The notes below the pieces were generated by a model. It was not told the origin of the DNA. It was given only the letters and a program-made list of their open reading frames with translations, and did not search any database. A stretch of 48,963 nt of DNA from an uncultured Granulosicoccaceae bacterium. GTDB taxonomy: Bacteria; Pseudomonadota; Gammaproteobacteria; Granulosicoccales; Granulosicoccaceae. The translations under genes and the position numbers were made by a program. The stretch lies in the NCBI GenBank assembly GCA_938003855.1, contig CALKXD010000210.1, forward strand, positions 1 through 48,963, given 5' to 3'. The first letter of the stretch is position 1. Every line of letters begins with the position of its first letter. Shown piece after piece: positions 5,391 through 48,867 of this stretch.

Positions 5391-6063
5391 AATTGTAGAT
5401 CCTTTACCCGGCACAATGTGCCAGTGATGTCTCCGGCAATTCCATTGCCGGAAGGGTGTGCTCGGGAACACGTTGTGTGTTCGAGTTGATACAGCGTGGT
5501 TTATAGATTTGACCGGCTGGCGGTTGCCGGAAAAATCGACAGCGTGAGGTATTCGCTAAAGATAAGCCACTAGCGGATGGCCTGAAAACAAGCCTGACCC
5601 TGTCGCTTTCCGATGGTTAAAGAGTAACCAACTGCACCTGCATTTGGAAGTCTTGAATCGTGGTAATTTTACCTTAGCCTGATGCGGCCGGGTAAGGTGA
5701 TCCGGCCAGCCGTTTACGGGTGTCAGCACTATCGGGCATTCGGTACCGGTCGTGCAGCCGATCGAAAATGCGCTGTTTCTCTGAGCTGTCCTGCAGTCCT
5801 TTGTTGTGATTACCGTTGTAGTGACTGACCGCTGATGTTGGCGTTGTGTCGATTGGCAGTACAGACCCGGTGGCCCTTAGTTAACAGTGGACTTTCAGCA
5901 GCTATTGACCGTTTGACTGTGCCGAAGAGGGCGGTTACGCGGGGTATTACTGAACGCCGGACAATTTATCTGTATGCGTCGCAGGCAAGTCAAATCTAAA
6001 ATCATGCACTATGCTCATAGCTAACCTGAATTTATTGCCTGGCACCCAGATCCGGAGACCTCT
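5391..6063. other. Intergenic stretch with a possible gene remnant
   Basis: This lies between two divergent genes and should hold both promoters; none is clear. On the minus strand 5674-5880 is open for about 68 codons and reads as a coding-like tail (for example EKQRIFDRLHDRYRMPDSAD), but it has no ATG or GTG near its beginning and follows a stop. It may be the 3' remnant of a lost gene. Confidence 0.35.
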
Positions 6064-6153
6064 TTGTGGGAATGGTCCAATACACACACTCGCTTAGCAG
6101 AATCACTCCGCGCCCTGCTGGATTTGACACCGGGAGTCACTGCCGATGACTAG
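6064..6153 (+). CDS. Possible 29-residue leader or small protein
   Basis: A TTG codon at 6064 lies six bases after GGAG and opens a 29-residue frame containing WEWSNTHTRLAESLRALLDL, a plausible amphipathic helix. It ends at 6153, overlapping the kinase start at 6146 by eight bases. The GGAG spacing, the protein-like composition and the overlap suggest translational coupling with the kinase. The rare start codon and short length make it uncertain. A second overlapping frame from GTG 6066 also runs into the kinase start (stop at 6147-6149) but looks less protein-like. Confidence 0.35.
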   Translation: MWEWSNTHTRLAESLRALLDLTPGVTADD

Positions 6154-8317
6154 TCAGGACGCGCTACCCGGAGGGCACCGGGTTCGATGGTATGAAATCG
6201 AAAGCCTGATTGGCCGTGGTGCCATGTGCCATACCTATCTGGCGACCGACCACAATCTGCAACGTCAGGTAGTAATAAAAGAGTTCTTCCCAGGCAGAAT
6301 CTGTGTTCGCGATGACGATTATTCGGTGGTTCCCGCGTCGGTACAGATGGCTCAGGCCTACCAGACGCTGAAGGAGAATTTTGTCGCCGAGGCAAAAACC
6401 CTGGCGCAGTACAGGCTGGAGAATATTGTCCAGGTGCACACCACGTTTGAGCTTAACCAGACTGCTTATCTGGTAATGACGCATGAGCAGGGTGGTAGTC
6501 TGGCGTCGATGATAGCGGAAAGCGTTGAGCCGCTCAGTGAAAAAATGCTGCTGGATATTTTGCGGCCGGTCATTGACGGATTGGCGAAGATTCATAATGT
6601 GGCCGTCACGCATGGTGATATTAACCCGTCAAATATTATTATTCGTGGTTACGGTGCACCGGTGCTGGTCGATATCGGATCATCCCGATCGCTGGCAAGC
6701 CAGATGCGCTGGCAGCACAGTCTACCGTCGAGTGTTGGTTATGCGCCGATCGAAATGCTCGACGGGACGGCCGGCACCGCGGGTGCATGGTCAGATATCT
6801 ATGCGTTATCAGCGACGCTGTATCACGCGGTAGCGCAACACAGTGCGGTTGATTCACTGCAGAGGGCCAGTGCAGTGGGCGCCGGCAGAACCGATCCCTA
6901 CAGATCGTTGGCCAGCGGCCCGAAGCGACAGTACTCCGTGGGATTTCTGGCGGCGATAGATTCCGGTATGTCGCTCAAACCCCGGCAGCGCCCGCAGAAT
7001 ATACGAGCCTGGGAGAATCATCTGCGCGGCATCGTTGATCCGACCCAACTAGCCCCCCCGGTGGCCAACAACAATGCGCTGTTGCCGAGAAAAACCAGTG
7101 AAGAAGTGTTGGGCGTTCATCGTGTGGGTGCTGAAAATACTGTTAAAACCGCCCCTGCCAAAGCTCCGTTGCCGACGCAGAATCCGCCATTGGTGCAGCA
7201 TCCACCGGTGGCTGACACATTCCCCCCTGCAGACCTTTCTGAACCGGTCTCTGTTGTGCCGGAAGATGTCCCGGTTGAACTCATTGCCGAGTTAGCGCCC
7301 GGCCGCAGACGTTTCACCCTGTCGCACGCAGGGCTCGCTGCCGGGGTAGCTCTGTTGATGGTTCCGGTGGTTTATCTGGGCATCGCGAATTATCCGGGTA
7401 CGCCGCTGCAGGCTGCTAATCGAACGGCAGCAGTTAACGACACGGTCCCGTCGGATCAATCTTCTGCCGCAGCACAGCAAGCGCAGACCACAGCACCACT
7501 TGCCGTGGCAGAAAATGCCAATGCGGTGGACACCCCGGTCGAGCTGGCTGACGCTGGAGAGCAAGCCGCGCTGGAAGAGACATCTGAGGTAGCGCTGAAT
7601 ACCGTGGCCATACCTGAACAGTTCAGCGCCGTTGTCGCCGAACCGACGATGCAGCAGCTGGCAGCAAAGGCCGCGGATGAACAGACGGTGACTGAGTTAC
7701 TCTCGGCAGTGAGTTGCGGCTCGTTTCTGCCTGTCGAAAACGGCTTAAAGCTTGACGGCGTAATTACCAAAACCGCATTGGATTGGATAAGCCCGAATTT
7801 ACCGGTAGATATCGCTGAAAACGATACTGAAAACCTGGTGGTGCTGGATGATGTCTTCTGTGCACCGCTGCTGGCACTGAAAGAAATAAAAGATCCCGCT
7901 CAGGTAACGCTTGCAACAGAAAACAACAATACCCGTTTTCGCGAAGGTGATCGTCTGGTCCTGAAGCTGGCGGTCGATGCCTACGAAGATAACTATGTCT
8001 ACGTTGATTATTTCACGATGGATGGTGCGGTGTTGCATATGTTGTCGTCGCAAACAACTACTGACAGTAACGCCAATTTTCTGATGCGTGGTGAATCAAT
8101 GCTGCTCGGTGAGCCCGGTGATATTGAGCGCTGGGATATTTCCCGGCCCTACGGCAATGAGCTGATCAGTGTCATGGTTTCTGATTCTCCGCTGGATATC
8201 GAGTCCACCGAAGAGGTTGAAGATGCACAGGTCTACCTCGACAGAGTCAAACAGGTACTTGCTGCCAGCGGGGCGCGAACGGTGAGCAGTTTTATCCCTA
8301 TAACCATCGAAAAATAA
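6146..8317 (+). CDS. Membrane Ser/Thr protein kinase with DUF4384-like domain
   Basis: 723 residues. Residues 1-300 are an Hanks-type kinase: glycine loop IGRGAMCHTY (22-31), ATP lysine K45 in VVIKEFFP, alpha-C Glu about E82, catalytic loop HGDINPSN (156-163) with D158 and N163, metal site DIG (176-178) and GYAPIEM as the APE equivalent. The loop has Gly for the usual Arg and Asn160 where most kinases have Lys, so activity may be reduced. A Pro/Ala-rich linker leads to one membrane helix (about 394-414), a second linker and a C-terminal DUF4384-like domain (about 590-690; FREGDRLVLKLAVDAYEDNY, then YVDYF), predicted periplasmic. The start follows CGGGAG nine bases upstream. It is followed by an FGE-fold gene; such kinase/FGE pairs occur in signalling modules and T6SS loci, but no T6SS gene is seen here. 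Confidence 0.88.
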   Translation: MTSQDALPGGHRVRWYEIESLIGRGAMCHTYLATDHNLQRQVVIKEFFPGRICVRDDDYSVVPASVQMAQAYQTLKENFVAEAKTLAQYRLENIVQVHTTFELNQTAYLVMTHEQGGSLASMIAESVEPLSEKMLLDILRPVIDGLAKIHNVAVTHGDINPSNIIIRGYGAPVLVDIGSSRSLASQMRWQHSLPSSVGYAPIEMLDGTAGTAGAWSDIYALSATLYHAVAQHSAVDSLQRASAVGAGRTDPYRSLASGPKRQYSVGFLAAIDSGMSLKPRQRPQNIRAWENHLRGIVDPTQLAPPVANNNALLPRKTSEEVLGVHRVGAENTVKTAPAKAPLPTQNPPLVQHPPVADTFPPADLSEPVSVVPEDVPVELIAELAPGRRRFTLSHAGLAAGVALLMVPVVYLGIANYPGTPLQAANRTAAVNDTVPSDQSSAAAQQAQTTAPLAVAENANAVDTPVELADAGEQAALEETSEVALNTVAIPEQFSAVVAEPTMQQLAAKAADEQTVTELLSAVSCGSFLPVENGLKLDGVITKTALDWISPNLPVDIAENDTENLVVLDDVFCAPLLALKEIKDPAQVTLATENNNTRFREGDRLVLKLAVDAYEDNYVYVDYFTMDGAVLHMLSSQTTTDSNANFLMRGESMLLGEPGDIERWDISRPYGNELISVMVSDSPLDIESTEEVEDAQVYLDRVKQVLAASGARTVSSFIPITIEK

Positions 8318-46013: not shown

Positions 46014-47456
46014 CTACATCAGCAGTAGCGACATCAGTGTCAGCGACACAATTCCCAGTAATGTGACCGGTAAAATTCGTCTCAGCAAGTCGGATTCGGC
46101 ACCCGGTGTGCCTGCGACCGTAGCGGCAAATACCAGCCGCCCGGGTGACGCCATGCTGCTATTGCTGCCAGCAGCATTCTGCGTCGCCGCGGTGATATCG
46201 ACGGGCAGGCCCACTTGTGCGGCTGCACTGGCTTGCAACGACATAAACAACGCATTCGAGGAGGCATTGCTGGCTGTTAAAAAACCGCCCAGGCCACCGA
46301 TGAATGGTACGGCAACGGCATAGTAAGGTCCGGCAGACTCTGCGATTGCAGTGGCGATCAAGCGGGTCATTCCGGCTTGCTTCATGAGCTCACCGAATAA
46401 CAGAAAGCCGCCTACAGCCAATGACGCCATCAGCCATTGTTTTGCCGAATTTGCGAGAATTGAGCGGGTCGATTTCCGGGCCGCCGGCTGCGTTGCCATG
46501 CCACTCAGTGCGGCGATGATCAGCCAGAAGCCGGGGTGATAAAAAACCGCTAAGTAGGATTCGCCCACGTACAGTGTCACTGCTTGCAGGGTATTGCTGA
46601 GCGGGGTGTAAAAGCGCGTGAGAAAAAGCGCACTCATCAGTACGATAAAGGGAACCAAGGCTTTGCCGAAACCGCTGCCGGACCTGGATTGTCGGCCGTT
46701 GAAATTGACCGCAAGCGCTGTGCAGACTATCAGTAAGCCGGCAACACAGCCTGCTAACTCGATACCGAGGGTAATCGATGCGAGCCACAGCAGGGTGCTC
46801 AACAAGGTGGCATAGGCGACGAGCCACAGGAGCTGTCGTATGTGCCCGGTCCATAGGCCGCTAACCAGCAAAGCGGTACCACCACACAGCAGCAGATACG
46901 GATAGCTGATAATCGCCGACACCTCGGCAAGTCGTACCTCCTCCACGCCTGACAGGTCGGAGCCCAGCACTGTGCCGACAGCAAGCGCACCCCATGGCAC
47001 AGCACATTGCCCTAGAAGTGCCAGCACGGCGGATTGCAGTGGTGTGTAGCCCAGCGCAATAAAAAGTGGTGCGACCACCACAATACCGACACCGAAGCCG
47101 GTCGCCGATTCAAAAAAAACGCTGACGCCAAAGACAATGGCAAACAGGCCGTGAAGCGGGTCGGTGATGTTGCCTGCAACCGTCTGTGCAATGGTATCGA
47201 GCGCACCGCCGACCTTCAGTACCTGGTACAGCAGCACACCGCCGAGTAGCACGTAGCTGACATTCATCGTGTTGTACAGGCCCGCTTCAATGGCACGGAT
47301 GAAGCCATCCGTCTGCAATTGGAACCCGGGCCACAGCACCACGATCAGCACCGTTAGCAGGAGCCCTGACAGCCCCGCTTTCAGGGCGGTTTGGCGCCAC
47401 AGCAATATGGCGAGTGTCGAGCCGACAATCGGCAGGCAGGCGACAAGTAGATTCAC
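46014..47456 (-). CDS. L-lactate-permease-family transporter
   Basis: 480 residues from a GTG at 47456, with about 12-14 helices. Family signatures are FESATGFGVGIVVVAPLF, LGQCAVPWGALAVGTVLG, GGLGGFLTASNASSNALF and TQNAAGSNSSMASPGRLVFA. Known relatives import L- and D-lactate or glycolate with protons (LldP/GlcA). It is somewhat shorter than LldP (about 550), so substrate range is uncertain. The start codon lacks a good ribosome site. It ends 17 bp from the convergent cyclase gene. Confidence 0.9.
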   Translation of the reverse strand: MNLLVACLPIVGSTLAILLWRQTALKAGLSGLLLTVLIVVLWPGFQLQTDGFIRAIEAGLYNTMNVSYVLLGGVLLYQVLKVGGALDTIAQTVAGNITDPLHGLFAIVFGVSVFFESATGFGVGIVVVAPLFIALGYTPLQSAVLALLGQCAVPWGALAVGTVLGSDLSGVEEVRLAEVSAIISYPYLLLCGGTALLVSGLWTGHIRQLLWLVAYATLLSTLLWLASITLGIELAGCVAGLLIVCTALAVNFNGRQSRSGSGFGKALVPFIVLMSALFLTRFYTPLSNTLQAVTLYVGESYLAVFYHPGFWLIIAALSGMATQPAARKSTRSILANSAKQWLMASLAVGGFLLFGELMKQAGMTRLIATAIAESAGPYYAVAVPFIGGLGGFLTASNASSNALFMSLQASAAAQVGLPVDITAATQNAAGSNSSMASPGRLVFAATVAGTPGAESDLLRRILPVTLLGIVSLTLMSLLLM

Positions 47457-47661
47457 CGTCGGGGGATCACCGGGTCGATGAGGCCGCTACTGTCCACCCG
47501 GGGGTAGTGCACATAGCTGCACTGCGGCGTACTACACGAAGAAGTCAGTCTGTTTATCCGGCTAGTGCGCACGAGCGGTCTATCTGGCGTTCCGAGTGGT
47601 AATTTTACCCGATAAATGTGGTATTCGCTTTCTTCAGTAGCATGGCAGTTTTGCGGATACT

Positions 47662-47747
47662 ACCGGTGTGGAATGGAACCACGTATTAAGGAAGGTCACT
47701 TCAGGGACGGTTGAAGGGGAAAGCAGGATGCTCTCCCCTTCTTTTTT
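47662..47747 (+). ncRNA. Candidate CsrA-sequestering small RNA (RsmX/Y/Z-like)
   Basis: An 80-90-base stretch with no open frame contains six GGA motifs (47670-47672, 47675-47677, 47690-47692, 47705-47707, 47718-47720, 47726-47728). Several fall in hairpin loops: GTGG-AATGGAA-CCAC (47668-47682), CTTCA-GGGACGGT-TGAAG (47699-47716, competing with the terminator) and AGC-AGGAT-GCT inside the terminator stem. It ends in an intrinsic terminator with six T. A possible promoter is TTCAGT (47633-47638), 17 bases, GATACT (47656-47661). A palindrome GGTAATTTTACC lies at 47598-47609, about 65 bases upstream of the expected start. GGA-in-loop hairpins are the hallmark of RNAs that titrate CsrA/RsmA. The identity is inferred from structure only. 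Confidence 0.55.
47713..47747 (+). terminator. Intrinsic terminator
   Basis: GAAGGGGA (47713-47720) pairs with TCCCCTTC (47734-47741), continues after one mismatch with AGC/GCT, and is followed by TTTTTT (47742-47747). The T-run is on the + side only. No rightward gene precedes it, so it most likely ends a small RNA. Confidence 0.88.
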
Positions 47748-47904
47748 GGTGCAACCTCTACCGCATTGGCGTGCTGCAGCGGCTGGCGGTTACCGGTCGA
47801 GCGGTTTTCACCATTGATGACGAGCGCTGTGCAGTGATTACCGTGAGTGTGTTGCGACAAGACGCCTCGACAACACCACCCTGACGTTTGATTCAGTGGA
47901 CTGG

Positions 47905-48867
47905 TTAGTTGGCCAGGCCGCGCAACTCCATATACATATTGGCATAGTTGGCACCGATTTCACGCAGGCCTTCAGCGGTGAAATGTACATTCACGTCATC
48001 GTAGGTTGGCAAGCCGGAACCGGCGACACAGGCAGTCCAGTAATCGGAGTCTCTGTTCAGTGCCATCAGTCGAGAGTTCACCGGTGACTGTGCGGTTTCG
48101 CCGCAGATAAACGGACGGTTGTAGTCAAACCAGCTTTCGTTTCTGAAGTTAGTGATCAGGGTCCAGAGCTTGTTACTGTAGTAGTCGTTGGCAACGTCTT
48201 CACCATGATAGTCGGTGTCGTTGGTGCCATTCTTTGACCAGTCTGTTTCACCCTGGTGCCACAAGATTCCGTCGTAGCTCGATTTGTGGGGCAGTTCATT
48301 CAGGGCTGCAACGGCCTTGTTGCGAACCTTGTTGTAAAAGTGCCCTTCATAGTCCCAGTGGCTGATACCCTCTCCCGGTGCGGTTACCAGTACTATTCCA
48401 ACCACGCGGTCGGACCGGCTGGTGGACAGCGTTTTGCCGAAGTGCATGCCGAAGTTGTTGTGCGGATCGCTGTCAGGGCTGGTGCGCGGGTGCCAGCCCA
48501 GATCCCAGATCTGATTGAGGCTGGCGCGTTGCCATCCCGCGTCTGTGTAGGCATAGAATCGATCAGTGGAGCTGTCGAGTTGTGGGTTGAATTCTGTCTG
48601 GGCACCGAGTGCATTCGATTGCCCTGTGATCAGAATCAGGTCGGTAATACCGCTCGGGCTGTCGATCAGTGGCTGCGGTGCGTCAGGAACGTCAGGCACC
48701 ACGGAATCGTTGGGAAGTGTAGGGTTGGTATCTTCGGTGGGCGGCACCGAAGTGATTTCGCGGGTATCCAGCGCAATCGAGCCGCCTTCGCTACCAGCGC
48801 CGCAGCCTGTAAGCAAAATGAGACATGTAAAGAGTATTGATGAGGTTGCAGGACTAAACCGTTTCAT
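47905..48867 (-). CDS. Lipoprotein carbohydrate esterase (SASA / sialate O-acetylesterase-like)
   Basis: 320 residues. The lipobox LTGC (Cys22) predicts an envelope lipoprotein, followed by a Pro/Ser/Thr/Asp-rich linker to about residue 75. The SGNH-type fold then shows LILITGQSNALGA with nucleophile Ser84, ILWHQGETDW (about 201-210) and a DDVNVHFTAEGLREIG ending with the catalytic Asp/His pair near 290-295. This matches the SASA esterase family, which deacetylates sugars of polysaccharides. A perfect LacI-family-type operator palindrome lies 45 bases upstream of the start, pointing to sugar-dependent control. Confidence 0.88.
   Translation of the reverse strand: MKRFSPATSSILFTCLILLTGCGAGSEGGSIALDTREITSVPPTEDTNPTLPNDSVVPDVPDAPQPLIDSPSGITDLILITGQSNALGAQTEFNPQLDSSTDRFYAYTDAGWQRASLNQIWDLGWHPRTSPDSDPHNNFGMHFGKTLSTSRSDRVVGIVLVTAPGEGISHWDYEGHFYNKVRNKAVAALNELPHKSSYDGILWHQGETDWSKNGTNDTDYHGEDVANDYYSNKLWTLITNFRNESWFDYNRPFICGETAQSPVNSRLMALNRDSDYWTACVAGSGLPTYDDVNVHFTAEGLREIGANYANMYMELRGLAN

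Follow-up and report, generated by a model that had tools for sequence, protein, structure and literature searches.

A candidate lineage-specific set of Csr-type small RNAs with a shared promoter element in the Granulosicoccaceae

The small RNAs of the Csr and Rsm systems evolve fast and are easily overlooked by sequence search. The known RsmX, RsmY and RsmZ RNAs are about 110-130 nt long, longer than the RNA described here. The repeat of CsrB reads CAGGA(U/A/C)G, and the CsrA consensus obtained by SELEX is RUACARGGAUGU (PMC7652899). The GacA/UvrY site found before Csr sRNA genes is the inverted repeat TGTAAG-N6-CTTACA, and in E. coli, where csrB and csrC are by far the strongest UvrY targets, both genes carry an extra half-site beside it (PMC4682653). 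Pf1, a lineage-restricted Csr sRNA of the non-model marine bacterium Pseudoalteromonas fuliginea, has 21 GGA motifs and a recognisable canonical GacA-type sequence (PMC9927453). The literature that we searched contained no mention of CsrA in connection with Granulosicoccus, nor of the palindrome reported below.

The stretch of DNA analysed here (the window; 48,963 nt) is the whole of contig C210 from the 6.8-Mb genome of an uncultured Granulosicoccaceae bacterium, the named relatives of which are Granulosicoccaceae MAGs and 'Chromatiales bacterium (ex Bugula neritina AB1)'. An intergenic stretch at 47457-47904 is flanked by an L-lactate permease gene (46014-47456) and a SASA-type esterase gene (47905-48867), both on the minus strand, and its plus strand carries no gene, as a first-pass annotation of the sequence had stated in proposing a CsrA-titrating small RNA there. 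On that strand, an orphan terminator, the promoter spacing and conservation in a relative delimit a predicted sRNA of ~80 nt (47668-47747, with the start placed to ±2 nt), which is present in a single copy in the source genome. All six GGA motifs claimed for it are there in the sequence (47670, 47675, 47690, 47705, 47718 and 47726), and an extra GGA at 47655 lies inside the promoter.

The first hairpin (GTGG-AATGGAA-CCAC, 47668-47682) folds with a GGA in its loop and is followed by the motifs AAGGAAG (GGA at 47690-47692) and AGGGACG (GGA at 47705-47707). The intrinsic terminator that had been proposed was confirmed at 47713-47747, where a stem of GAAGGGGA and TCCCCTTC with AGCA-GGA-TGCT (47713-47741) folds to expose the apical loop CAGGATG (GGA at 47726-47728) and is followed by a T6 tract (47742-47747); a simple terminator scan did not pick up this hairpin. 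Since the GGAs at 47675, 47726 and 47705 were mostly unpaired in partition-function folding (unpaired probabilities of 0.99, 1.0 and 0.71, respectively), the earlier claim that at least three motifs are presentable is fair, with near-fully exposed loops holding only two of the six. The folding energy was unremarkable (z of -0.4 and -1.4), indicating no unusual stability. An ATG at 47673 could open a 13-aa reading frame, a coding reading that we rejected because the related genome G012 has no ATG at this position; no ORF is shared through the RNA. As far as sequence alone can tell, the RNA is non-coding and has a promoter and a terminator of its own.

The GGA count by itself is not enough to mark this RNA as significant. 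Its cluster is denser than any other in the window and alone reaches six or more GGAs per 86 nt; since an order-1 Markov model of the window predicts about 3.8 such clusters, the cluster alone is not significant, and the significance of the sRNA comes from comparative evidence. Segment by segment, and with order-1 Markov shuffles as the reference, the locus was compared with that of the Bugula neritina symbiont AB1 (G012, L027), whose permease protein is 68% identical. Upstream of the permease gene and beside the same esterase gene, this genome carries the same promoter element, followed by a terminated RNA of 81 nt that is rich in GGAs. The RNA (SW score 172, shuffle maximum 100) and the promoter (108, shuffle maximum 82) were conserved above all shuffles, whereas the 5' and 3' flanks were at chance (62 and 67, shuffle means 65-67). 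Five of the six GGAs were retained in G012, compared with 7 of 45 other non-overlapping triplets (binomial, about 5e-4). The GTGG/CCAC stem of hairpin 1 is kept around a GAAGGAG loop, AAGGAAG is conserved, AGGGACG has the counterpart ACGGATG, and the terminator keeps the GGA in its loop while one inner pair shows a compensatory change from A-U to G-C. The proposal had been tied beforehand to conservation of the GGA loops, and it stands after this comparison.

These data bear on the simplest alternative, namely that a GGA-rich terminator arose by chance in a decaying intergenic region. Such an artefact would be in keeping with a GGA cluster that is expected at random and with a possible gene remnant upstream (47537-47566), but the sharp conservation of promoter and RNA relative to randomised flanks, together with the recurrence of the promoter element ahead of five other GGA-rich RNAs, makes it very improbable indeed. 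When the intergenic region was compared directly with 57 genomes by blastn, nothing useful emerged; a 30-bp match in G034 was dropped because it lies inside a dehydrogenase-type gene (L003). The matching segment, 47537-47566 on the minus strand, agrees with the coding DNA of that gene at 28 of 30 bases and is possibly a decayed gene remnant or a chance match.

The first-pass annotation had also connected the RNA with the neighbouring diguanylate cyclase and permease genes. This link is weak, because the cyclase gene lies apart from the permease gene in G012 and because the related sRNAs of three other relatives (G004, G010 and G009) adjoin other genes. Most relatives of the permease gene have no such sRNA upstream, so the synteny is not general, and the two neighbours are probably incidental.

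A covariance model built from the sRNA pair of the source genome and G012 led to G004 and G010, in which the same element stands ahead of RNAs of ~160-175 nt with 7-9 GGAs. Besides G012, three relatives have the palindrome, half-site and -10 box, ahead of a further four GGA-rich terminated RNAs in all. The longer RNAs of G004, G010 and G009 are plainly CsrB/Rsm-like, with 7-9 GGAs and compensatory pairs, and one in G004 contains CACAGGATGT, which is near the SELEX consensus for CsrA. In each of the six sRNAs, the terminator loop contains a GGA. The second GGA-rich RNA of G004 (L125 1241-1457) has the same element and a consensus TATAAT box, which means that two or more of these RNAs occur in some members. 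Weaker covariance matches (L080, L082, L085, L136-L138, L140 and L141) were dropped for want of a convincing GGA and terminator structure, and a model of the long-type sRNAs (R2) had no match in the source genome or G012. The comparison with Rfam RsmX, RsmY and CsrB models that had been suggested gave no match in the window at the gathering score, and at relaxed E-values the CsrB, CsrC, RsmX, RsmY and PrrB_RsmZ models matched neither near the locus nor at the five related loci. Taken together, the predicted RNAs form a Csr-type sRNA set that is specific to the lineage, has its own promoter element and lies outside the Rfam families; it was revealed by the conserved promoter element rather than by RNA sequence, in a marine and partly host-associated lineage.

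The RNA resembles CsrB/CsrC and RsmX/RsmY/RsmZ in its multiple loop GGAs, its CAGGAUG-type element, its stand-alone intergenic gene, its intrinsic terminator and a palindromic upstream site, but differs from them in having no Rfam match, in being shorter (~80 nt) and in the sequence and spacing of the upstream site. The terminator loops CAGGATG and CAGGAAG fit the CsrB repeat, and the GGA count (six, about three exposed) equals that of RsmX of P. brassicacearum (PMC7911923). Like Pf1, it is lineage-restricted, dense in GGAs and found in a non-model marine bacterium; unlike Pf1, it has far fewer GGAs and no canonical GacA-type sequence. The source genome encodes two CsrA proteins above the NCBIfam cut-offs, both of which retain the conserved residues, L4 and R44 among them. 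The locus thus combines loop GGAs, conservation above background and non-coding character with the presence of CsrA, as is typical of the CsrB/RsmXYZ class. From the anatomy of the RNA, its resemblance to CsrB/Rsm RNAs and the presence of two intact CsrA proteins, we infer that it is transcribed, binds CsrA and titrates it; with the conserved GGAs and the shared promoter, the proposal of a CsrA-titrating RNA is well supported, and a CsrA-sequestering RNA of the CsrB/RsmXYZ type is very probably what the locus encodes.

The same features could in principle belong to a conserved base-pairing sRNA whose GGAs come from a purine-rich seed and which does not act on CsrA. A short, single-copy RNA with a terminator U tract of the kind seen in Hfq-bound sRNAs would suit this interpretation, which is nonetheless improbable given the selective retention of GGAs in G012, the GGA in the terminator loop of all six RNAs and a promoter held in common with much longer multi-GGA RNAs.

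The candidate activator site of the predicted CsrA-sequestering RNA is the palindrome GGTAATTTTACC (47598-47609, plus strand), identical at the sRNA promoters of G012, G004 (two), G010 and G009, with its centre 51-53 bp before the -10 box. A conserved half-site, GGTAT (47620-47624), lies exactly 10 bp past the palindrome, a spacing shared by all eight promoters compared, although it reads AGTAT in one of them (G004b). The -10 box, GATACT at 47656-47661, appears as GATACT, GATAAT, TATAAT or GATAGT across the eight, always 57-59 bp from the start of the palindrome.

We searched for the pattern GGTAWTTTTACC-N10-GGTAY alone, with no RNA sequence in it. Allowing one mismatch at most, it gave 13 matches within the genus (in 5 of 14 genomes) and 5 among 34 other family genomes, compared with 3 matches for a reversed-pattern control in all 48. 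Exact matches numbered seven, all within the genus, and none was found in 368 other Gammaproteobacteria genomes. Five of the seven precede GGA-rich terminated RNAs (in the source genome, G012, G004, G010 and G009) and two precede DUF1127 genes (in the source genome and G012); a one-mismatch match precedes the second GGA-rich RNA of G004. The exact palindrome alone occurs six times in the source genome, against about 0.55 expected, mostly between genes.

The first-pass annotation had described the palindrome as placed like a GacA/UvrY activating site without matching the consensus. Both observations were borne out in that the same letters recur at six sRNA promoters, a GacA ortholog exists and no TGTAAG-N6-CTTACA is present at the sRNA promoter. 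As in the GacA/UvrY site, the element is an inverted repeat with GTAA..TTAC halves and an extra half-site before Csr sRNA genes (PMC4682653). Unlike that site, the GTAA and TTAC blocks of the 12-bp GGTAWTTTTACC are 2 bp apart rather than 8, and the half-site GGTAY follows 10 bp downstream. Across the source genome, only two sites matched the canonical sequence with one mismatch, neither on C210, a control pattern gave more, and no GGA-rich RNA followed either site in a genome-wide search.

A response regulator gene lies directly upstream of uvrC in the source genome and its relatives, as uvrY does in E. coli, and by this synteny its predicted product is a divergent GacA/UvrY ortholog. It was found in 38 of the 48 family members searched and in 27 of the 28 near-complete ones, is 32% identical to E. 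coli UvrY and scores 128 bits, below the NF007018 cut-off of 280. Across the genus its recognition helix is STYKRR(A/S)F; genus g4 has STHRTRAF there, and E. coli UvrY has NSYRYRMF. The source genome's own copy (L069 1498-2244) has VDYQE in place of the VDDHE found in most, a change of one acidic-pocket residue; the G012 sequence is VDNQE.

In the mechanism that we propose, the promoter has a poor -35 region and would need an activator on GGTAATTTTACC-N10-GGTAT (centre at about -64) to initiate transcription near 47668. The most probable candidate for this role is the clade's divergent GacA/UvrY encoded beside uvrC, and we regard the chances that GacA acts here through a changed site as roughly even. 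The stand-alone ~80-nt RNA would then bind CsrA dimers via GGAs placed in hairpin loops or in single-stranded linkers, a capture that would free CsrA-repressed mRNAs, as CsrB/CsrC and RsmX/Y/Z do. Should GacA indeed bind the new element, the case would provide a compact example of a conserved two-component regulator with a changed DNA code and the same output.

Another regulator, whether of the NarL/LuxR type or unrelated, might instead bind the palindrome ahead of a genuine CsrA sponge, in which case the Csr RNAs of this clade would be switched on independently of Gac; we take this possibility seriously while placing it somewhat short of even. The palindrome is unlike TGTAAG-N6-CTTACA, which is missing here; exact copies are also found close to a kinase gene and between T6SS genes, DUF1127 genes have a variant upstream, and the genome encodes dozens of response regulators. 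Set against this are the retention of the uvrC-adjacent ortholog across the family, the standing of csrB/C as the foremost UvrY targets in E. coli (PMC4682653) and the activator position of the palindrome, with an extra half-site as at E. coli csrB and csrC. A broader form of the GacA reading is less probable: in this subclade, the recognition helix (STYKRRAF vs NSYRYRMF in E. coli UvrY) and the site (now GGTAWTTTTACC-N10-GGTAY) may both have changed, with the regulator driving CsrA-sponge RNAs, directly controlling DUF1127 genes and possibly reaching T6SS genes. If true, the Gac regulon would have been re-addressed and its CsrA output kept.

Several copies of the palindrome lie away from sRNAs. 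Those at L009, L010, L011, L012 and L014 were set aside because no sRNA-like sequence follows them. A second exact GGTAATTTTACC in the window (5662-5673), intergenic and flanked by a minus-strand ORF of 254 aa and a Ser/Thr kinase gene (6146-8317), likewise has neither a GGTAY half-site nor sRNA-like sequence. The copy at L014 1501-1512 in the source genome lies between divergent T6SS genes (encoding an ImpA_N/TssA-like protein and an FHA-domain protein), and from its position the same regulator may directly reach T6SS genes. The full element, as GGTATTTTTACC-N10-GGTAT, precedes a DUF1127 small-protein gene in both the source genome and G012 (L086 1501-1527 and L117 1501-1527), with a GATAGT -10 box spaced as at the sRNA promoters; some DUF1127 proteins are reported to bind RNA (CcaF1, PMC10253847).
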